From the NCBI GenBank assembly GCA_902515205.1, contig CABXTU010000006.1, positions 1 to 47,197 of the forward strand: DNA of 47,197 bases, read 5' to 3'. This DNA is from an uncultured Pelagibacteraceae bacterium (GTDB lineage Bacteria > Pseudomonadota > Alphaproteobacteria > Pelagibacterales > Pelagibacteraceae). The notes beneath the pieces were generated by a model. The model was given only the letters and a program-made list of their open reading frames with translations. It did not search any database and was not told the origin of the DNA. A program made the translations under genes and the position numbers. Position 1 is the first letter of the stretch. Every line of letters starts with the position of its first letter. Below are positions 4,812 through 14,029 of the stretch, one piece after another.

Positions 4812-5590
4812 TGGTACAAATAAGTTTACCTGAAAACTCAAAAGTAAAAAAAGGCAAATATTTTAAAGACAAGACTGGTTCAAAGAATTTAAGAAAAGTG
4901 AATATATACAGGTGGGATCCTTCAACTGGAGAAAATCCTAGAATTGATACTTATGAAGTTGATATGGATAATTGTCCTTCAAAAGTTTTAGACATATTAA
5001 ACAAAATTAAAAATGAATTAGATCCCACAATAGCTTATCGAAGATCATGTGCACATGGAGTTTGTGGTTCTTGTGCAATGAATATGGGTGGAAAAAATGG
5101 TTTAGCTTGTACTACTCCTCACTCTGATATTGAAGGTGATATTGATATTTATCCATTACCGCATCTCAAAGTAAAAAGAGATTTAATAGGAGATTTAGAT
5201 GGACTTTATAAACAATATCAATCAATAGAACCTTGGTTAAAATCAAACTCTAAATCCGAAACCACTGAAATTATTCAATCAAAAGATGACAGAAAGAAGT
5301 TAGATGGCGCTTATGAGTGTATCATGTGTGCATGTTGTTCGACATCTTGTCCAAGTTACTGGTGGAATGGTGATAAATATTTAGGTCCAGCTGTCCTTTT
5401 ACAAGCTTATAGATGGATTGTAGATAGTAGGGATGAAGAAAGAGAAGCTAGATTAAAAAAAGTTGCGGATGAATTAAAACTTTACAGATGTCATACTATT
5501 TTGAACTGCACAAGCGCATGCCCAAAAGGTTTAAATCCTGCAAAAGCAATAGCAGAAATTAAAAAGATGTTAGCAACTGCTAGTCTTTAA
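4811..5590 (+). CDS. sdhB: Succinate dehydrogenase iron-sulfur subunit SdhB
   Basis: SdhB carries electrons from FAD in SdhA through [2Fe-2S], [4Fe-4S] and [3Fe-4S] clusters to quinone. The 259 residues contain the plant-type ferredoxin cysteines C80, C85, C88 and C100. The second ferredoxin domain has [13 protein letters not shown] (C170, C173, C176, C180) and later [15 protein letters not shown]. The quinone-pocket residues of E. coli SdhB (P160, W164, H207) are conserved here as P181, W185 and H228. The start overlaps the sdhA stop (TAATG). The 3' end overlaps the convergent iclR-type gene by 11 bases, leaving no room for a separate terminator. Confidence 0.98.
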
Positions 5591-6341
5591 ATAATACTTT
5601 TTTTAGATTATTTGCAGAAGATATCATAGTTGGCAAAATTTTTTTTAAATCATTAATATCTTTTCTACTTTTCGCGGTATGTGTTGACAAACAAAAACAT
5701 AACTCTTTATTTGAATTAAATATTGGTATCGAGAGCCCAACCATTCCATTAAACCATTCTTCATCATCAAAGGCATAACCTTGATTTTTAATTTTTTTTA
5801 GTTCTTTTTTAAATAGCGAAATATCAGTGATTGTGTTTTTAGCTGTTTTAGGAGTTTTGATATTTTTAAATATTTGAATTACATTTTTTTCTTCTATTGA
5901 TGATAAATATAATTTCCCTGATGCGGATGCATGTAATGGAAGATGGTCTCCTGCCTCTAAGTTTAATTGCATTGGCCAATGAAATTCTATTCTGTCAAAA
6001 TAAACAAGTTTAGTACCTATCGGTATTGATAAACTAATTGTTTCCTCAATATCATTAGTTAGTTTTCTTAAGTATGATCTTCTTAAAGTAAAATTTGGTT
6101 CATAGGGTAGGCTTTTTAAAATTAAATTTCTTATTTTTGGTCCAGGAAGATATTTTTTCGAACTACTTGCTACTAAATATTTTTCCTCACATAGGGTTTC
6201 AATATGTCTATAAATTGTAGGCAAAGGTATTTTTAACTTATGAGAAATTTTTTTTGCAGTAAAGTTATCAGGATCAACTATGATTTCCTCAAGTATATTT
6301 AATATTCTTCTTGGAGATGTTCTACTATTTGTGTCTGTCAT
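5580..6341 (-). CDS. IclR-family transcriptional regulator
   Basis: The 253-residue protein has an N-terminal winged helix-turn-helix. [10 protein letters not shown] is followed by [24 protein letters not shown] within the first 55 residues, which is the IclR signature arrangement. A C-terminal effector-binding domain follows, with [15 protein letters not shown] and [20 protein letters not shown], both typical of the IclR ligand domain. IclR proteins usually bind small organic acids or aromatic intermediates and control an adjacent catabolic operon. It lies 22 bases downstream of the semialdehyde dehydrogenase gene on the same strand, so it probably controls its own operon and the divergent dehydrogenase/TRAP operon. 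Effector identity cannot be read from sequence. The end overlaps sdhB by 11 bases, convergently. Confidence 0.93.
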
Positions 6342-6363
6342 CTAAATTTAAATCTTTAAAAAT

Positions 6364-7857
6364 TTAAGATAAAACTGGAATAGTAAATTCAGGTCCTGCA
6401 TTGTCTTCTACCCAAGTCACAGTCGCGGTTTTGAGTTTAGTGTAAAACCTAACACCTTCTGGTCCGTGCATTGAATGATCTCCAAATAAGGATCGTTTCC
6501 ATCCACCAAAACTATGATAAGCAACGGGCACGGGGATAGGTACATTAACTCCTATCATACCAATTTTTGCATTTTCAGTGAAATGTTTAGCAATATTTCC
6601 ACTTTTAGTAAAGACAGCTGCTCCGTTCCCAAGCTCATGGTCATTAACTAAGTTTAGTGCTTCTTCATAAGTATCAGTGGTCATCATACTTAATACCGGG
6701 CCAAAGATTTCTTCTTTGTAAATTTTCATATCTGGTTTGACATCATCAAATATTGTTGGGCCAACAAAGTAACCATTTTCGTAACCTTGTTTTTTAAAAT
6801 TCCTACCATCCGATAATAATTTAGCTCCTTCTTTTTCTCCAGTATCAATGTATCCTAAAACTTTCTCAAAATGAGCTTTGTTATTTAGAGGACCAAAATC
6901 ACTTTTCTCATCAGTATATGGTCCTACATTTAATTTTGCAGTTTCTTCTAACAATTTTGTTTTTATTTTCTCTTTAGTTTGTTTTCCTACACAAACAGCA
7001 ACCGAAATTGCCATACACCTTTCCCCTGCTGAACCAAAAGCAGATCCTATAATTGCGTCTGTAGTTTTATTTACATCAGCATCAGGCATAATAACCATAT
7101 GATTTTTTGCTCCGCCTAGAGCTTGCACTCTTTTATTGTTTTTTGTACCTGTGTGATAAACATACTCAGCTATTGGCGTTGAACCAACAAAACTAATTGC
7201 TTGAACTGTTTTATTTTCAAGCAAAGTATCTACTGCCTCTTTATCACCATTAACAACATTTAAAACACCTGGAGGAAAACCTGCTTCAATCGCTAATTCT
7301 GCTAATCTGATTGGACAGCTTGGATCTTTTTCAGATGGTTTTAACACAAATGTATTTCCACAAGCTATAGCAACGGGATACATCCACATTGGAACCATCG
7401 CAGGAAAATTAAATGGTGTTATCCCAGCACAAACTCCAAGAGGTTGTCTCAATGTATGTGAGTCGACATTTGTTCCAACACTTGTTGAATGATCCCCTTT
7501 TAAAGAATCTGTAATTCCTGTTGCATATTCAACTACTTCTATTCCTCTTTGAACTGAACCTTTGGCGTCAGCAATTGTTTTCCCATGTTGTTCAGAGACT
7601 AGATTTGCAAGTTGTTCCATATTATTTATGAGAAGGTCTTTATATTTTGATAAAATTCTTGATCTATTTATTGGTGTAGTTTTTGACCATTTTAAAAAAG
7701 CCTCTGAGGAATTTTTAATGGCCATTTCAACTATAACCTTACTAGCTAATTCAACTTCAGCAATTTGTTCACCAATAGCTGGATTGAATATTGGTCCTTT
7801 TCTAGATTTATCATTCGAATAAATCTTACCATTAATAAAGTGACTAACTGTTTTCAT
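6364..7857 (-). CDS. mmsA: Methylmalonate-semialdehyde dehydrogenase, CoA-acylating (MmsA/DddC-like)
   Basis: MmsA-type aldehyde dehydrogenases convert (methyl)malonate semialdehyde, NAD+ and CoA into propionyl-CoA or acetyl-CoA with loss of CO2. The 497 residues show the ALDH fold: TPFNFPAMVPMWM near 147-159, cofactor-binding FVGSTPIA near 223-230 and catalytic Cys281 in GSAGERCMA. The usual ELGGK motif with the general-base Glu is replaced by LGGAKNH (247-253), which is characteristic of the CoA-acylating MMSDH subfamily. The partner genes are an IclR regulator downstream and a divergent iron alcohol dehydrogenase. The combination resembles the dddB-dddC pairs that process 3-hydroxypropionate from DMSP/acrylate. 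Alternatives are valine, thymine or beta-alanine catabolism. Confidence 0.93.
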   Translation of the reverse strand: MKTVSHFINGKIYSNDKSRKGPIFNPAIGEQIAEVELASKVIVEMAIKNSSEAFLKWSKTTPINRSRILSKYKDLLINNMEQLANLVSEQHGKTIADAKGSVQRGIEVVEYATGITDSLKGDHSTSVGTNVDSHTLRQPLGVCAGITPFNFPAMVPMWMYPVAIACGNTFVLKPSEKDPSCPIRLAELAIEAGFPPGVLNVVNGDKEAVDTLLENKTVQAISFVGSTPIAEYVYHTGTKNNKRVQALGGAKNHMVIMPDADVNKTTDAIIGSAFGSAGERCMAISVAVCVGKQTKEKIKTKLLEETAKLNVGPYTDEKSDFGPLNNKAHFEKVLGYIDTGEKEGAKLLSDGRNFKKQGYENGYFVGPTIFDDVKPDMKIYKEEIFGPVLSMMTTDTYEEALNLVNDHELGNGAAVFTKSGNIAKHFTENAKIGMIGVNVPIPVPVAYHSFGGWKRSLFGDHSMHGPEGVRFYTKLKTATVTWVEDNAGPEFTIPVLS

Positions 7858-7879
7858 TAAAATTAATTTTTATAAATTA

Positions 7880-7912
7880 AATATAACACGTTTTTTTTGA
7901 TTGCAACATGTT
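7880..7912. promoter_or_regulatory. Candidate operator: paired AACAYGTT repeats over the mmsA promoter
   Basis: Two near-identical palindromic octamers, AACACGTT (7885-7892) and AACATGTT (7905-7912), lie 20 bases apart centre to centre, i.e. about two helical turns on the same face. On the minus strand they overlap a possible mmsA promoter (TTGCAA at 7906-7901, then a 15-base spacer and TATATT at 7885-7880). This would suit a regulator such as the neighbouring IclR protein. The repeats are seen; function is inference and could be coincidence in AT-rich DNA. Confidence 0.35.
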
Positions 7913-7955
7913 TCCTTAAATGAGAAAAATATTATCAATTAAGGGTTTTATGGTG

Positions 7956-7985
7956 TTGACTCCTAAATTTACTTAAGCTTAGATT
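7956..7985 (+). promoter_or_regulatory. Candidate sigma-70-type promoter for the alcohol dehydrogenase/TRAP operon
   Basis: TTGACT at 7956-7961 is followed after 18 bases by TAGATT at 7980-7985, about 25 bases before the TTG start at 8010. The -35 is good and the -10 is moderate (4 of 6). It lies between the candidate operator repeats and the gene. There is no other promoter-like pair in the 152-base divergent gap. Confidence 0.4.
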
Positions 7986-8009
7986 AGATTAATTTAAAGA
8001 GGAGATGGC

Positions 8010-9191
8010 TTGATAAAAAGAGACAATGTCCGAATATGCGTACCAAGATATATGCAGATTGGTAAGGGTAGTTTGAATCAACTTCCAGAAATTATAAAAA
8101 CTTTAAATTCAGTGAAATCTTTTCTGATTGTTACGGACAAACATATGGTTGAATTTGGTTATGTAAAAAAGCTTCAAAATATTTTAACTAAAGCAGGATT
8201 AAAATCTAATGTTTTTGATGATACTGTCCCTGATCCAACTGATAAGGTAGTTTTAAATGGTATTAATCATTTAGAAAAATTTAAAAGTGAGGCTGTAATA
8301 GGTTTTGGAGGCGGTAGTCCAATTGATACTGCTAAAGCTATTGCTGTAATGGCTAAGTATAGTAAGAATGTACAAGATTACAAACCACCTTCAACGTTTG
8401 ATAAACAAGGTTTACCAATTATTGCTATACCCACAACAGCCGGAACTGGCTCAGAAGTAACTCATCACGCAGTAATCATAGACTCAAAAAATAATGAAAA
8501 AATTTCGTGTAGAGGTGAAGGTTTCGTTCCAACCTGTGCAATCGTCGATTATGATTTAACTTTATCAAAACCAAGAAGACTAACAATCGATAGTGCCATC
8601 GATACTTTAACTCACGGGATTGAGGCTTATATTAGTAAAAAGGCTACATTATTTTCAGATAGAATGGCTTTAGATACAATAAGACTTGTAACACAAAATA
8701 TTTATGCTGTTGATAAAGATCCTAAAGATTTAAAAGCAAGAGAGGGATTAATGTTAGCTGCAACTCTAGGAGGTCTAGCATTTTCAAATGCATCAATATG
8801 TTTAGTTCACGGGATGAGTAGACCTTTAGGGAGTAACTTCAAGGTTCCGCATGGATTAAGTAATGCAATGTTATTACCTACTATAACTGAGTTTTCAATT
8901 GATTATGCCAAAAGCAGATATGCTGATTGTAGTAAAGCTGGAAATTTTGCTCAGCTAAATGACGACGACGATACTGCTTGTGAAAAGTTGGTTAAAGGTC
9001 TTTATAAAATGAATAAAGATTTTGATGTACCATCAATGAGAAAGTTCGGTATTGATGAAAAAAATTTTGAGGAAAAGCTTAAAAATATGGCTACTGATGC
9101 AGAAGTTTCAGGAGCGCCTAACCTCAATCCAAGAGTGCCTACTGTAAATGAAATGGTTGATCTTTACGGTAAAGCATGGAGAGCGTTCTAA
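8010..9191 (+). CDS. Iron-containing alcohol dehydrogenase (group III; DddB-like)
   Basis: This 393-residue protein is a group III Fe-dependent, NAD-linked alcohol dehydrogenase. GFGGGSPIDTAKA (98-110) binds the NAD pyrophosphate, and PTTAGTGSEVT lies at 141-151. The four metal ligands match the FucO pattern: Asp198, His202, His267 and His281. The start is TTG with a strong SD (GAGGAG) five bases upstream; the nearby ATG at 8005 is out of frame and stops at once. The protein oxidises a primary or secondary hydroxyl compound or does the reverse. Placed divergently from mmsA and before a TRAP transporter, it could convert 3-hydroxypropionate or a similar hydroxy acid to its semialdehyde. The exact substrate is not determinable. 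Confidence 0.92.
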   Translation: MIKRDNVRICVPRYMQIGKGSLNQLPEIIKTLNSVKSFLIVTDKHMVEFGYVKKLQNILTKAGLKSNVFDDTVPDPTDKVVLNGINHLEKFKSEAVIGFGGGSPIDTAKAIAVMAKYSKNVQDYKPPSTFDKQGLPIIAIPTTAGTGSEVTHHAVIIDSKNNEKISCRGEGFVPTCAIVDYDLTLSKPRRLTIDSAIDTLTHGIEAYISKKATLFSDRMALDTIRLVTQNIYAVDKDPKDLKAREGLMLAATLGGLAFSNASICLVHGMSRPLGSNFKVPHGLSNAMLLPTITEFSIDYAKSRYADCSKAGNFAQLNDDDDTACEKLVKGLYKMNKDFDVPSMRKFGIDEKNFEEKLKNMATDAEVSGAPNLNPRVPTVNEMVDLYGKAWRAF

Positions 9192-9193
9192 AA

Positions 9194-9229
9194 TGAGTTG
9201 GGGATGTTCTTTAAATTTAAAACAACTCA
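9194..9229 (+). promoter_or_regulatory. Stem-loop just before the dctP ribosome binding site
   Basis: TGAGTTG (9194-9200) pairs perfectly with CAACTCA (9223-9229) around a 22-base AT-rich loop containing TTTAAATTTAAA. The SD GAGAGGGG (9235-9242) follows, then the ATG at 9246. It may protect or punctuate the dctP message. No U-tract follows, so it is not a classic terminator. Confidence 0.35.
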
Positions 9230-9245
9230 AAATAGAGAGGGGAAA

Positions 9246-10310
9246 ATGAAAAAACTGATAAAAACATCTGTTAGTTTCTTTGCAGTGTTTGCTTTAATGG
9301 TAACTTTTTCATTACAGCAAGTTACTGCAGCGGAAAAAATTAGATGGAAAGTACAATCTACTTTTAATACTGGTTGGCCTGCATTAGGAGATCCTGTTGC
9401 ACGTTTATCAGACACATTAGATAGAGCGACTGATGGTAGAATTAAATTAAAGGTTTATGAACCTGGAAAAATTCTTCCACCATTAGAAATCTCACCTTCA
9501 ATAAGTAAAGGTGACTTGCCAGCAGCTTATAATTATATGGCATATGACCAAGGAAGAATACCAGCAGCAGTATTATTTGCAGCTGTACCATTTGGAATGG
9601 AGCCATGGGAATATGCAGCTTGGTGGTTTGAAGGGGAAGGCGCTAAATTAGCTAATGAAATATACAACAAACAAAATATTCAAGTTTTGTTATGTAGTAC
9701 AATTGGGCCTGAAACAGCTGGTTGGTATAGAAACCCTATAACTAGCCTTGCAGATCTTAAAGGTTTAAAAATTCGTTTCTCAGGTTTAGGAGGAATGGTT
9801 TTAAATGAAATAGGAGCTTCAGCTACTTTAATGGCTGGTGGAGAAATTTTTGCAGCACTAGAAAAAGGAACTCTAGATGCTACTGAATATTCAATGCCTG
9901 CTATTGATGAGGTTTTAGGTTTTCATAAAATCACTAAGTTCAATCTGTTCCCAGGTTGGCACCAAGTATCAACTTCAACTCATTTCATGATCAATTTAGA
10001 TTTATGGAAAAAAATGGGTGCAGCTGACCAAGCATTATTCGAAATGGCTTGTACAGCGGCGGCTATGAGAGCAATTACTACTGGTGAATTTTTACAAGGA
10101 AAACAAATTGGATCTTTTCCTTCTAAAGGTGTAACAGCAGCTAGATTGCCTGATAGTGTATTGAGAGAGCTACAAAAAGTTAGTGCTAGAGTAATGAAAG
10201 AAGAATCTGCTAAAGATGCTGACTTTGCCAAAGTATGGGCTTCTCAACAAGCATTCATGAAGGAGTATGATGTTTGGCAAAAATGGGGATATTTACCTCG
10301 AAACTTTTAG
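9246..10310 (+). CDS. dctP: TRAP transporter solute-binding protein (DctP family, TakP-like)
   Basis: This is the periplasmic substrate receptor of a tripartite TRAP importer. With the start at 9246 (strong SD GAGAGGGG) the protein has 354 residues and a clean Sec signal peptide (MKKLIKTSVSFFAVFALM to about VTA, residues 1-28). A longer frame from 9198 would bury this signal and is unlikely. The mature part has LKGLKIRFSG (171-180) with Arg177, the family arginine that salt-bridges a substrate carboxylate, and ALEKGTLDATEY (204-215). VPFGM, AGWYR and FPGWHQ resemble the 2-oxoacid-binding TakP subgroup, so an organic acid (keto or hydroxy acid) is a reasonable ligand guess. A strong stem-loop terminator follows, which would give the receptor more message than the membrane subunits. 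Confidence 0.94.
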   Translation: MKKLIKTSVSFFAVFALMVTFSLQQVTAAEKIRWKVQSTFNTGWPALGDPVARLSDTLDRATDGRIKLKVYEPGKILPPLEISPSISKGDLPAAYNYMAYDQGRIPAAVLFAAVPFGMEPWEYAAWWFEGEGAKLANEIYNKQNIQVLLCSTIGPETAGWYRNPITSLADLKGLKIRFSGLGGMVLNEIGASATLMAGGEIFAALEKGTLDATEYSMPAIDEVLGFHKITKFNLFPGWHQVSTSTHFMINLDLWKKMGAADQALFEMACTAAAMRAITTGEFLQGKQIGSFPSKGVTAARLPDSVLRELQKVSARVMKEESAKDADFAKVWASQQAFMKEYDVWQKWGYLPRNF

Positions 10311-10343
10311 TATTTAATACTTAAAAAGTTGATTATAATAATG

Positions 10344-10376
10344 AAAGCGGCCGGTTTCACCGGCTGCTTTTATTTT
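10344..10376 (+). terminator. Strong stem-loop with U-tract between dctP and dctQ (partial terminator)
   Basis: A 12-bp stem (arms 10344-10355 and 10359-10370, one G-T wobble) closes a three-base TTC loop and is followed by TATTTTT. The core GGCCGGT/ACCGGCT is by far the most GC-rich element in the neighbourhood. It lies 33 bases after the dctP stop and 14 bases before the dctQ start. It fits a leaky Rho-independent terminator or 3' mRNA stabiliser, as is common after binding-protein genes. Confidence 0.85.
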
Positions 10377-10389
10377 TAAAGAAAAAATT

Positions 10390-10959
10390 ATGTCTAAAGA
10401 ATTTACATCTGTAAAAAGTTCTCTTGATAAAAAACTACAGCTTAGACACACATCTATCACAAAGAAAATTGATAATTTTGTCTTACAGATAGGAGAAATT
10501 TTTAATTGGTTCTGGGTAATATTAATTGCAGTTATCATTCTAAATGTAGTCTTAAGATATGTTTTTAGAAATGGAATGATTGAGCTGGAGGAATTGCAAT
10601 GGCATCTTTATTGTATAGGTTGGTTAATTGGTTTATCTTCAACATATATAGTGGACTCTCATGTTAGGGTTGATGTTTTAAGCGAGAGATTAAGTTATAG
10701 AAAAAAACTATGGTTTGAATTATTTGGTATTTTGATTTTATTTTTACCATTCGTAATACTCGTTCTTTATTATGCAGTCCCTTTCTTTGAATTATCATGG
10801 GCTTCAAGTGAAAGATCTACATCAGCCAATGGGTTGCCAGCTAGATGGTTTGTAAAAGGTTTTTTAGTAATCAGTTTTTTTTTACTCTTAATTTCTGGTT
10901 TCTCAAGGATTGTAAGAATAATAGAAACACTGCGATTTGGATTAGAGGATAAAAAATGA
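10390..10959 (+). CDS. dctQ: TRAP transporter small permease subunit DctQ
   Basis: This is the small integral membrane subunit of the TRAP importer, 189 residues. About 35 polar N-terminal residues are followed by four hydrophobic segments (about 42-62, 73-95, 113-137, 154-177). Typical DctQ features are the NVVLRYVFRNGMIELEELQW stretch after the first segment, then the DSHVRVD motif. It begins 14 bases after the stem-loop terminator and overlaps dctM by 4 bases (ATGA), so Q and M are coupled. Start chosen at the ATG at 10390; no strong SD is visible. Confidence 0.93.
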   Translation: MSKEFTSVKSSLDKKLQLRHTSITKKIDNFVLQIGEIFNWFWVILIAVIILNVVLRYVFRNGMIELEELQWHLYCIGWLIGLSSTYIVDSHVRVDVLSERLSYRKKLWFELFGILILFLPFVILVLYYAVPFFELSWASSERSTSANGLPARWFVKGFLVISFFLLLISGFSRIVRIIETLRFGLEDKK

Positions 10960-12323
10960 TTTCATTAGTTACAGAATATTTTTTAGCAATCGCTCTCTTT
11001 TTTAGTTTTATAACATTAATATTTTACGGATTTCCTGTAGCGTGGACCATGGGTGGTTTAGGAGTTTTGTTTATATTTATCTCAATGCTTTCTGATAATT
11101 TATTTGACACTTTTTATGGTGTTGATTTTGGATTTGCATCCATGGTTGTTTATAGACTTTATGGAGTCATGGCAAACTGGGTTTTAGTTGCGCTTCCAAT
11201 GTTTATTTTTATGGGAATAATGATGGACAAATCTGGTATAGCAGAGGATCTAATGACTGATCTGTCTAAATTGTTTGGTAAAACAAGAGGTGGACTTGCA
11301 ATCTCAATTGTATTTATCGGAGTTTTGCTTGCTGCTTCCACAGGAATTATTGGTGCAGCAGTAGTACTTCTAACAATTTTAGGTGTGCCATTAATGTTAA
11401 AGAATAAGTACAATCCAAATTTAGCTTGTGGAGTTGTTTGTGCAACTGGGACTTTAGGAATTCTTATACCTCCAAGTATTATGCTCGTAATTATGGGGGA
11501 TCAAGTAAGAATTTCAGTTGGAGATTTATTTATGGGGGCTGTATTCCCAGGTTTATTACTTGGGTTATTATACACAATTTTTATCGTTGTTTATGCTTAC
11601 ATGAATCCTAAAGCTGCACCACTTCCAAAAGATGCTGAACCAGTAGATTTAAAAATAGTTTTAAGAGTTTTAAAATCTATCATACCACCAGCTTTATTAA
11701 TTTTTGCTGTTTTAGGAAGTATATTCATGGGAATTGCTACTCCAACTGAAGCATCTGGAGTAGGAGCTTTAGGCGCATCTTTATTGGCTATAGTTAGAGG
11801 AAGATTGTCATTTTCAGATTTAAAAATTGTGATTAGAAAAACAACCCATACTACAGCTTATATTTTTGCACTTTTTGTTGGCGCAACAATGTTTGCATTA
11901 ATTTTAAGAGGTTTGGGGGGAGATGAATTAATAGAGGGAGCGCTCAAGGCATTACCTTTTGGAACAAGTGGAGTTGTAATAGTTGTTTTGTTTGTGGCAT
12001 TTCTATTAGGTTTCTTTTTAGATTGGATTGAAATTACATTAATCATTTTACCTTTCTTGGCACCAGTAATGATGGATCTTGGGGTTGATATGGTTTGGTT
12101 TATTGTAATGTTTGCAGTGGTTTTACAGACTTCATTTATAACCCCACCTGTAGGATTTGCTTTATTTTATATGAAAGGTGTAGCTCCTCAAGGAATTTCT
12201 ATAACAAATATATATAAAGGAATAATTCCATTTGTTATCCTTCAAGTAATAGCAGTAGCTATAGTGTTTAATTTTCCTGAAATAGTCACTTGGTTACCAA
12301 AAGTTGCATACGGACCAAATTAA
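10956..12323 (+). CDS. dctM: TRAP transporter large permease subunit DctM
   Basis: This is the translocation subunit, a sodium-coupled permease of the DctM family in the ion-transporter superfamily. The 455 residues give about twelve hydrophobic segments. Family motifs include FPVAWTMGGLG near the start, NWVLVALPMFIFMG, the GILIPPSIMLVIMGD loop, GIATPTEASGVGALGA, and SFITPPVGFALFYMKG near the end. Length is normal. It is coupled to dctQ upstream, and the channel homologue begins only 5 bases after its stop, with no terminator between them. Confidence 0.95.
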   Translation: MISLVTEYFLAIALFFSFITLIFYGFPVAWTMGGLGVLFIFISMLSDNLFDTFYGVDFGFASMVVYRLYGVMANWVLVALPMFIFMGIMMDKSGIAEDLMTDLSKLFGKTRGGLAISIVFIGVLLAASTGIIGAAVVLLTILGVPLMLKNKYNPNLACGVVCATGTLGILIPPSIMLVIMGDQVRISVGDLFMGAVFPGLLLGLLYTIFIVVYAYMNPKAAPLPKDAEPVDLKIVLRVLKSIIPPALLIFAVLGSIFMGIATPTEASGVGALGASLLAIVRGRLSFSDLKIVIRKTTHTTAYIFALFVGATMFALILRGLGGDELIEGALKALPFGTSGVVIVVLFVAFLLGFFLDWIEITLIILPFLAPVMMDLGVDMVWFIVMFAVVLQTSFITPPVGFALFYMKGVAPQGISITNIYKGIIPFVILQVIAVAIVFNFPEIVTWLPKVAYGPN

Positions 12324-12328
12324 GTTTT

Positions 12329-13582
12329 ATGAAAAAAAAAATTATTATTTTATTTTTTTTAATATTATTAGTTTCTATTTCAAAAACTTTTTCAATTGAA
12401 GTAACCTCTCTCGAAGCAGAAAAAAGATTAGAGTTTAGTGAATTTTTTCCAAAAAAGATTTGTAATAAAATTTACGAAGAAAGTTTCTTTGGAAAAGAAA
12501 ATAAATTATCTGAAGAGGTAGAATTGAAAGCTTATTTTAATTTAAAAAGATTAAATGTTGATGAAGCTAATTCGAATTTGTTGCTATATTTTGATCAGAG
12601 ATCGTATAATTATAAAGATCCTAAACTTGGTATAATAATCTTTAACAACATATCAGATGACTTTTCTGATGAAGTGGCATCTCTTAACAAAAAAATAAAA
12701 GATGCTGGAACTCAAAAAATAGTAGTTTGTGAATACGATCTTGAAAAATCTCTATCAGAAGGAAAATTTTTTGATTTTAAAATAATATTTGATAATGCAA
12801 CAAAAGTTGAGACGAATGTGCCTCCTAAAATATTAATTTATTTTGATGGTACGATTGAATATCTCTACTTTAATGAAAAAGTTGAATATAACGCGTCAAA
12901 GTTTAATTATAAAAAATATCCATTCGACGTACAAAATTTTAAAATCTCTGTATCATCTCAAATTTCTGAAAACTTATCATTTAGAATGTCGGATAAGTTC
13001 AAGTTACTAAATGCTGATATAAAAAAATTAGAATTTTCAAATATATCATCTCCTGGTTGGACAATAAAACAATATAACACTTACCCTGTCTTAGATTATT
13101 TGGGTTATGTGTATTCAGATTATGCAAAACCATCGGTTAAATCTGAAATTACTATACATAGAAATTCAATCATTTTTGTATTTAAATTTATTATGCCAAT
13201 TGTAATGATAATAATGCTTACTTATTTCACAATATTTTTACCATTTGAATTTGATAGAACATCAGTTTGTATTACTTTAGTTTTAGCCCTTGTTGCATTC
13301 AATTTAGTTGCTGCATCATCAAAAATTCCAGATATGCCTTACTTGAATATATTTGATTGGTTTATTTTTACTGCATATGTGAATGCTATTTCAGTTTTAA
13401 CTTTAACATTTATAGAAGCCATTTATATTGGTCACTTCATGGGGTATGGTCGAGATATTTTTAAAGTACCATTGGATAAAAAAACTGGGCTTATAAAATT
13501 TAGAAAAATATCATGGATCATCTTATTAATGATATTAATTGTTTCAGCTTCAGCTGGATATTGGGTAATATTTTTAGGTTAA
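12329..13582 (+). CDS. Pentameric ligand-gated ion channel homologue (Cys-loop/pro-loop receptor type)
   Basis: I read this 417-residue protein as a bacterial relative of GLIC and ELIC. It has a signal peptide (1-22), a periplasmic domain (about 23-280) and four membrane segments. YPFD at 197-200 is the invariant pro-loop motif (compare YPFD in GLIC). M1 (281-304) carries Pro290 as in these channels. M2 (about 309-330) contains AFNLVAAS, then the M2-M3 linker KIPDMPY, very like NLPKTPY in ELIC. M3 is 342-366 and M4 is 394-415. Acidic Glu307/Asp309 at the inner end of M2 suggest cation selectivity. The ligand domain is about 60 residues longer than in GLIC, with extra sequence near 101-145. 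Cys45 and Cys134 are not the Cys-loop pair. The start at 12329 gives a proper signal peptide; an earlier in-frame start at 12290 would overlap dctM. Ligand unknown. Confidence 0.85.
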   Translation: MKKKIIILFFLILLVSISKTFSIEVTSLEAEKRLEFSEFFPKKICNKIYEESFFGKENKLSEEVELKAYFNLKRLNVDEANSNLLLYFDQRSYNYKDPKLGIIIFNNISDDFSDEVASLNKKIKDAGTQKIVVCEYDLEKSLSEGKFFDFKIIFDNATKVETNVPPKILIYFDGTIEYLYFNEKVEYNASKFNYKKYPFDVQNFKISVSSQISENLSFRMSDKFKLLNADIKKLEFSNISSPGWTIKQYNTYPVLDYLGYVYSDYAKPSVKSEITIHRNSIIFVFKFIMPIVMIIMLTYFTIFLPFEFDRTSVCITLVLALVAFNLVAASSKIPDMPYLNIFDWFIFTAYVNAISVLTLTFIEAIYIGHFMGYGRDIFKVPLDKKTGLIKFRKISWIILLMILIVSASAGYWVIFLG

Positions 13583-13588
13583 ATTAAG

Positions 13589-14029
13589 ATGAGAAAAATT
13601 ATATCTATTTTTTTTGTTGGTGTCTTATTATTGACTGAAAATATTTATGCGAATTTTAATTTTACTCTGAAAGAATACCTGGATAAAAATGATTTAGAAG
13701 ATGGTACAACCCAAATTTATTTATTAAAAAGATGTAGTGCAGTTTACGCATATGCCTCAGGTGTTATTTTAAAATCGGATGCTGTGACTTCAAAGAGTTT
13801 CATAGAAATTTCAAATAATTTAATATTTAAAGCTGTTGAATTAAAGGTTATTGATGAAAAAAAAAAATTAGAAGATGCTCAAGAGGAGGCAGAACAAAGC
13901 CGAAAAGAGCTATTCAATATTTACATAACTGATGGCAAAAAGAATTGGGAAAAAAACAAATCTCATTTTAAAGGTTCGTATATATCTGATGATATGGCTA
14001 TCTGCTCAAAGTTGACTGAAGATAATTAA
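13589..14029 (+). CDS. Small exported protein of unknown function
   Basis: I do not recognise this 146-residue protein. It has a convincing signal peptide (MRKIISIFFVGVLLLTENIYA, about 21 residues). A short mature region follows with two cysteines (in RCSAVYAYASG near residue 49 and in AICSKL near 140) that could form one disulfide. A charged, probably helical Lys/Glu-rich stretch lies in the middle (about 88-110). It begins 6 bases after the channel gene and is surely cotranscribed with it, so a periplasmic partner of the channel is possible but unproven. It lies 60 bases before mdh. Confidence 0.75.
   Translation: MRKIISIFFVGVLLLTENIYANFNFTLKEYLDKNDLEDGTTQIYLLKRCSAVYAYASGVILKSDAVTSKSFIEISNNLIFKAVELKVIDEKKKLEDAQEEAEQSRKELFNIYITDGKKNWEKNKSHFKGSYISDDMAICSKLTEDN

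Follow-up and report, generated by a model that had tools for sequence, protein, structure and literature searches.

Why does a streamlined SAR11 genome carry a relative of the receptor channels of nerve cells, and how did that gene acquire its present form? The gene lies in a window of 47,197 nucleotides, the whole stretch of DNA analysed here, from an uncultured Pelagibacteraceae bacterium (NCBI GenBank assembly GCA_902515205.1, contig CABXTU010000006.1, positions 1 to 47,197 of the forward strand). The genome belongs to SAR11 (Pelagibacterales), a group of bacteria abundant in the ocean, as a first-pass annotation of the DNA had supposed, and falls in the same genus-level group as Candidatus Pelagibacter ubique HTCC9565. 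That annotation had also called the gene a pentameric ligand-gated ion channel (pLGIC) homologue, and the evidence agrees. The open reading frame at 12329-13582 on the + strand is unbroken and encodes 417 amino acids from an ATG start. The profile search that had been proposed as a check gave significant E-values to the channel families (NCBIfam LIC 2.8e-11 and LGIC_1 3.7e-8; Pfam Neur_chan_memb 0.0012), though the bit scores fall below the curated cut-offs for PF02932, TIGR00860, and NF033918. Superfamily membership is therefore based instead on the predicted fold and on phmmer matches to PDB sequences, namely ELIC (5e-10), sTeLIC (8e-10), GLIC (1.4e-7), and DeCLIC (7e-7).

The AlphaFold2 model, built on a 31-row alignment, has a mean pLDDT of 77.8 and a pTM of 0.67, with residues 18-37 unreliable. 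A beta-rich periplasmic domain is followed by helices at residues 280-303, 310-330, 341-370, and 382-416. Searched with Foldseek, the model matched GABA-A chains at 7e-19, with sTeLIC and DeCLIC also listed, while VIA-align returned GABA-A subunits in its top rows (Z 23.4, 3.2 Å over 319 residues). Both the beta-sandwich ligand domain and the four-helix membrane domain by which a pLGIC is recognised, and on which the earlier call had been staked, are thus present over residues 39-415, and the gene is confirmed as a genuine bacterial relative of the nerve-cell receptor channels. Its features, with coordinates in the window, are as follows.

12329..13582, + strand: pLGIC subunit of type A (defined below), 417 aa, coordinates including the stop codon
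12329..12394, + strand: signal peptide, residues 1-22 (predicted helix 2-18 with the conserved mature start next to it; putative cleavage site)
12395..13162, + strand: periplasmic sensor domain, residues 23-278
12461..12463, + strand: Cys45, conserved in 25/25 full-length type A rows
12620..12706, + strand: two helices predicted by AlphaFold2, residues 98-126
12728..12730, + strand: Cys134, conserved in 25/25 full-length type A rows
12917..12928, + strand: Pro-loop YPFD (residues 197-200), without flanking Cys-loop cysteines
13166..13576, + strand: pore domain, with M1 280-303, M2 310-330, M3 341-370, and M4 382-416 (AlphaFold2)
13247..13258, + strand: cytoplasmic pore mouth, E307 (-3′), D309 (-1′), and R310 (0′)

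The residues on which the channel reading rests are strongly conserved. YPFD at 197-200 and a proline in M1 had both been picked out from the single sequence; the Pro-loop proline P198 is present in all 25 rows having the position, and the M1 proline, P290, in 26/26. Invariant where present are YPFD, Y262, Y265, K267, R278, N279, P290, R310, P334, and Y338, the loop C residues Tyr262, Tyr265, and Lys267 being found in all 26 rows. Exactly two periplasmic cysteines (45 and 134) occur in each of the 25 full-length type A rows, which were selected as intact copies, and they would form a disulfide. The metazoan-type Cys-loop, in which two cysteines close the beta6-beta7 loop, is absent since C45 and C134 do not flank YPFD. 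The model places periplasmic helices at 42-51, 98-109, and 113-126, with a Cys-bearing strand after the last. The helices at 98-126 form the core of a stretch at residues 101-145 that had been described as missing from GLIC; the extra length is real, at ~54 mature residues N-terminal of the aligned part (residue 168 aligns with GLIC chain residue 92 by phmmer), but its edges are slightly different.

The acids E307 and D309 at the pore mouth, with prime numbering after GLIC, make it somewhat probable that the window channel is cation-selective, and the ligand-gated cation entry proposed earlier is a plausible hypothesis. At -3′ to -1′, 7 of the 26 type A rows lack any acid, so cation selectivity is not a trait of the entire subfamily. 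Cation-selective pLGICs have a GE[K/R]-like acid at -1′, ahead of the 0′ base; at that position the window and one further row have D, and the rest have G (11), Y (10), H (2), or S (1).

The channel had been described as closely paralleling GLIC and ELIC. Homology stands, over window residues 168-359 for the proton-gated GLIC of Gloeobacter and over residues 123-359 for the amine-gated ELIC of Dickeya, with which the window protein also shares a Pro-loop without cysteines and four membrane helices. The parallel is a loose one, however, the best structural matches having only 12-17% identity. N-terminal of where the two align, the window protein is ~50 residues longer than ELIC (its residue 123 pairs with ELIC chain residues 48-50), and it has two extra helices and the Cys45/Cys134 pair. 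The loop-B residues Glu131 and Phe133 serve amine binding in ELIC (PMC3119659). In the gapless part of the phmmer alignment, a comparison of sequence only, their counterparts in the window protein are Ser209 and Gln211, which makes an amine pocket like that of ELIC unlikely; among 25 rows, position 209 is S in 16, Y in 7, and T in 2, and position 211 is K in 14, Q in 3, G in 3, R in 3, and E in 2. DeCLIC of Desulfofustis (Foldseek 1.1e-17) is another bacterial pLGIC whose periplasmic side is enlarged. In DeCLIC the addition is an N-terminal domain, whereas in type A the extra helices lie within or beside the ligand domain. In this respect, SAR11 channels of a second kind, the long type B with a PDZ-like N-terminal domain, are nearer to DeCLIC than type A is.

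Type A is defined here as a pLGIC subfamily, so far seen in Pelagibacterales only, that has the Cys45/Cys134 pair, the loop C residues Y262, Y265, and K267, and a long periplasmic part, all of which are found in the window protein. A scan of genome contigs with two short peptide patterns returned 23 type A loci, all 23 from Pelagibacterales and one of them from the isolate HTCC9565. A single-protein query gave matches at E <= 0.001 in 24 of 297 family genomes. A type A profile matched in 46 of 397 genomes sampled from the order and in 39 of 399 from the genus; of 289 sampled from the class it matched in 3, the window's own among them. These samples overlap with one another and with the family sample, and many of their genomes are incomplete. 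The majority of the matches are longer or more distant channels, and in the class sample the two besides the window were weak (7.5e-15 and 8.4e-12). Type A proper (E <= 1e-90) was found in 13/397 Pelagibacterales genomes, one further genome of that sample (G455) holding a broken copy, and in 11/399 genus genomes. Broken copies or remnants in genomes G455 and G772 indicate that the gene can be lost. The window's own genome has one pLGIC match. The earlier argument from streamlining is not borne out to the extent that the gene is no core gene but an accessory one, present in 13 of 397 genomes, missing from the same site in five others, and reduced to remnants elsewhere. A phage origin was considered and rejected, as 25 stretches of viral contigs match a peptide pattern and none encodes a relative by single-protein query, a search that distant relatives would escape.

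Other short channels were met in these surveys. L112:2826-4103 is the second type A gene of genome G372; its pore is 23-33% like those of the other type A channels, and its sensor 48-57% like those of the full-length ones. L126:3327-4598 (genome G337), L036, and L037 represent another short pLGIC type of ~420 aa (family f2); channels of this type score 8.4e-30 to 9.7e-33 against the type A profile, and ahead of that of L126 lies an ORF of 392 aa containing a signal-like stretch.

In the window, the channel is tightly packed on the same strand between two genes.

10956..12323, + strand: DctM, the upstream neighbour, ending 5 bp before the channel
13589..14029, + strand: o146, a secreted-looking 146-aa ORF starting 6 bp after the channel

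Such packing would suit an operon. Five genomes, however, have a dctM-o146-mdh junction without the channel, with dctM and o146 a few to some tens of bases apart, so o146 belongs to the site and not to the channel, and its candidacy as an operon partner was rejected. The channel is most likely an insert between dctM and o146, a polarity that we infer. By our own grouping, which clusters the neighbours of the 23 loci, the window, and the later-found L112, type A channels occupy ~12 neighbourhoods with no constant partner: besides dctM/o146, they lie beside NAD kinase, between an Anbu-like gene pair and ybgC, at tsaD/EVE, near grxD and rpsD, after a large repeat protein, and in six single cases. 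This survey rejects a link to TRAP transporters or the TCA cycle as a general rule. We assigned the neighbour names, and within the window those of sdh, mdh, and suc, by recognising the sequences rather than by search. Upstream of the channel, positions 5580-12323, between what are presumably sdhB and mdh, hold an IclR-type regulator, an iron alcohol dehydrogenase, a CoA-acylating methylmalonate-semialdehyde dehydrogenase (1.1e-197), and TRAP DctPQM, a catabolic set inside a TCA gene cluster.

The history of the gene emerges from the locus L053 (AG-325-L02), which shares the window's site and was aligned with it over 13,246 columns. In 250-base bins, the two are 90-99% identical outside the channel, 80% in the bin straddling the channel start, 66%, 68%, and 75% over 12500-13249, and 86% over 13250-13499. 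The divergence begins at about the start codon. The channels of the window and L053 differ by a dS of 0.785 and a dN of 0.214, against 0.045-0.234 and 0.001-0.018 in nine flanking genes. Nor is the divergence even along the protein. The sensor of the window is 82% identical to that of L051 (= L002) and 60% to that of L053, and its pore is 86% identical to that of L053 and 68% to that of L051. Synonymous sites follow the same division: sensor dS is 0.37 to L051 as against 1.26 to L053, and over a set of nine class I channels other than L051 it spans 0.88-1.59; pore dS is 0.37-0.47 to L053 (0.37) and L057-L062, 0.91 to L055, 1.02 to L051, and 1.28 to L052. Because L053 stays near its own group in both halves (sensor dS 0.23-0.53, pore dS 0.10-0.26), it is the window channel that is the recombinant.

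Phylogenies of the two domains conflict accordingly. The sensor (ECD) tree joins the window to L051 (support 100/99) and the pore (TMD) tree, which carries a long-branch warning, joins it to L053 (96/96); AU tests reject the opposite groupings (p 2.2e-4 and 8.8e-6), for clades chosen once the identity matrix of the same data was known. The alignment (A3) holds 24 different type A genes and the trees 23. Duplicate entries of a gene were left out, as was L054 for being near-identical and, from the trees only, the partial L073. L070 is included without its first residues; the trees also lack L093-L095 and L112, which came to light later, and the broken or cut L034, L096, and L107 were set aside. 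Among sites at which the window matches one parent only, a maximum chi-square analysis puts the best switch at codon 289 (chi-square 127; the highest value over 1000 permutations was 20), within the following zone.

13154..13207, + strand: recombination breakpoint zone, codons 276-293, at the pre-M1/M1 border

The window channel is hence very probably a natural recombinant whose sensor half shares its ancestry with L051 and whose pore half shares it with L053 and its group, a judgement made jointly for the wider explanation given below. Such recombination is not visible from one sequence, and the first-pass annotation gave no sign of it. The chimera was met in one genome (83% complete, 42 contigs), and our searches gave no second copy.

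A second natural sensor/pore chimera, L063/L064, has its switch near that of the window and is present in two genome records, AG-908-E18 and AG-914-M14. It shares its upstream sequence and its sensor (79-80% at the nucleotide level) with L070/L071, from which its pore is far removed (49-51%), and no similarity to them was found downstream. At the protein level, its pore is 71-86% identical to twelve class I rows and 28-33% to class III. AU tests gave p of 1.6e-31 and 3.1e-5, and the breakpoint, with a chi-square of 181 where permutation gave at most 24, falls at codons ~257-270. Each of the two switches is placed around Y262-N279, a conserved block that provides sequence homology at the domain border.

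The gene is under purifying selection. In nine near pairs, sensor omega is 0.03-0.34 and pore omega 0.04-0.46, and for the window against its two parental lineages omega is 0.21-0.24. Pore omega exceeds sensor omega in 8 of 11 type A pairs, and neither half has an omega above 1 in any of the 11 at the half-gene level. The pore is more alike than the sensor in 4 of 21 pairs among 7 type A genes, versus 66 of 66 among 12 type B genes. We do not claim that large between-class pore differences reflect pores from unrelated channels, since the higher pore omega allows fast divergence; for the variability of type A pores there are two possible sources, exchanges of pores in the more distant past and a weaker constraint on this half, and recombination is claimed for the two recent chimeras only.

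Could unequal rates or an artefact of assembly or amplification, such as a fast pore or a chimeric contig, mimic this history? The weaker constraint on most type A pores and the single genome behind the window allele lean that way. Synonymous divergence, however, reverses between the halves, each being near the lineage from which the other is far, which a faster pore cannot produce. An artefact, for its part, would have to draw on a donor not yet seen (from its nearest known relative the sensor is separated by a dS of 0.37), keep the frame intact, and change over at the domain border; L063/L064, moreover, stands in two genome records. We regard this explanation as improbable. Slightly less credit goes to a GLIC/ELIC-like channel of the ordinary kind, inherited vertically, linked in function to the TRAP transporter and TCA genes beside it, and serving organic-acid-linked cation entry. 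The close packing with dctM and o146 and the acids near the pore mouth are what such a channel would show; its genomic partners, however, do without it at five junctions and are replaced at the other type A neighbourhoods, and vertical descent is at odds with halves of different ancestry.

That genomes merely gain the gene, let it drift, and lose it again, as a passenger in decay that serves no role under selection, is very unlikely given omega values of 0.03-0.46 and the retention of the Cys45/Cys134 pair (25/25), the Pro-loop, and Tyr262/Tyr265/Lys267 (26/26) among aligned copies chosen as intact, even though its accessory distribution (13/397 at E <= 1e-90) and the broken copies in G455 and G772 are of the kind expected of a passenger. 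Equally unlikely, in our estimation, is that the sensor was exchanged under attack, by a phage using it as entry factor, a bacteriocin, or an inhibitor, and not for ligand specificity. The dip in identity between flanks of ~95% does resemble attacked, exposed loci. Against this, the sensor faces the periplasm, the single-protein query met no relative in viral contigs, loop C and the cysteine pair are invariant, and half-gene omega never rises above 1.

We therefore favour, with considerable confidence, a functional accessory SAR11 pLGIC whose sensor was exchanged by homologous recombination and whose pore and flanks are those of the resident lineage. By homology, five copies of the subunit would assemble into an inner-membrane channel, the periplasmic domain would bind a small molecule, and the pore would then open, letting through ions that E307 and D309 suggest are probably cations. 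The part from the start codon to codon 276-293 would descend from an L051-like donor, the pore domain and both flanks would belong to the lineage resident at the dctM/o146 site, and the exchange may have altered what the channel responds to or conducts. A broader reading is tentative, and we hold it to be a little less probable than its converse: SAR11 populations would possess a combinatorial receptor set. Periplasmic sensors would form one pool and pores another, the latter with at least four sequence classes, some without an acidic mouth, and homologous recombination within the conserved stretch from loop C to M1 would link members of the two anew, so that new ligand/ion pairings would arise naturally, much as laboratory chimeras create them.

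Laboratory-built pLGIC chimeras, among which a GLIC sensor has reportedly been joined to the pore of the glycine receptor, likewise unite the sensor of one channel with another's pore near the same border; the SAR11 joints differ in being natural, in chimeric genes with intact frames. A 2016 study already names Pelagibacter among pLGIC holders, suggests recombination of sensor and pore among paralogues as a path to new receptors, and proposes conflicting domain trees as its sign (PMC4795631). In the open-licence literature, which we searched in part, we found no report of natural sensor/pore recombination in pLGICs. The window thus provides a natural mix-and-match of the kind that has been proposed for the family and built in the laboratory. 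Both SAR11 cases show the domain-tree conflict with strong support, the window also at synonymous sites, and they offer naturally matched sensor/pore pairs for experiments on crosstalk between the two domains, as well as a handle on what bacterial pLGICs are for.

Beyond type A, 13 regions were examined, picked mostly for holding two channel matches. In 7 of them a flavin amine oxidase gene with a twin-arginine-like start stands next to a pair of pLGIC genes or separates the two. These seven, from other Pelagibacteraceae genomes, are L114:1724-6890, L115:3814-9004, L118, L119, L120, L121, and L122; the oxidase of L114 matches PF01593 at 3.5e-42, and the other six were recognised by sequence likeness. 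The adjacency suggests amine channels working together with an amine-removing enzyme; in the open-licence literature, we found no paper linking ELIC to an amine oxidase operon.

Type B channels (L009, L010, L014, L015, L114-L119, and others) have a PDZ-like domain in their N-terminal 170 residues, for which the evidence is weak but consistent. Pfam PDZ matches L014 at 1e-4 (23.1 bits, cut-off 23.2) and L009 at 0.036, and is absent from L015, L018, and L114. A model of the L009 N-terminal domain (pLDDT 73.4) has PDZ domains or PDZ-bearing proteases in its first 22 Foldseek rows (best E 1.9e-3), some of which we take to be PDZ-carrying proteases. A gene for a PrsW-like protease is found in the same cluster as the amine oxidase and pLGIC genes, and PrsW family genes adjoin type B channel genes at L011:356-1021, L009:3021-3620, and L114:1724-2431 (PF13367 at 5.7e-39, 8.1e-34, and 1.1e-33, respectively).
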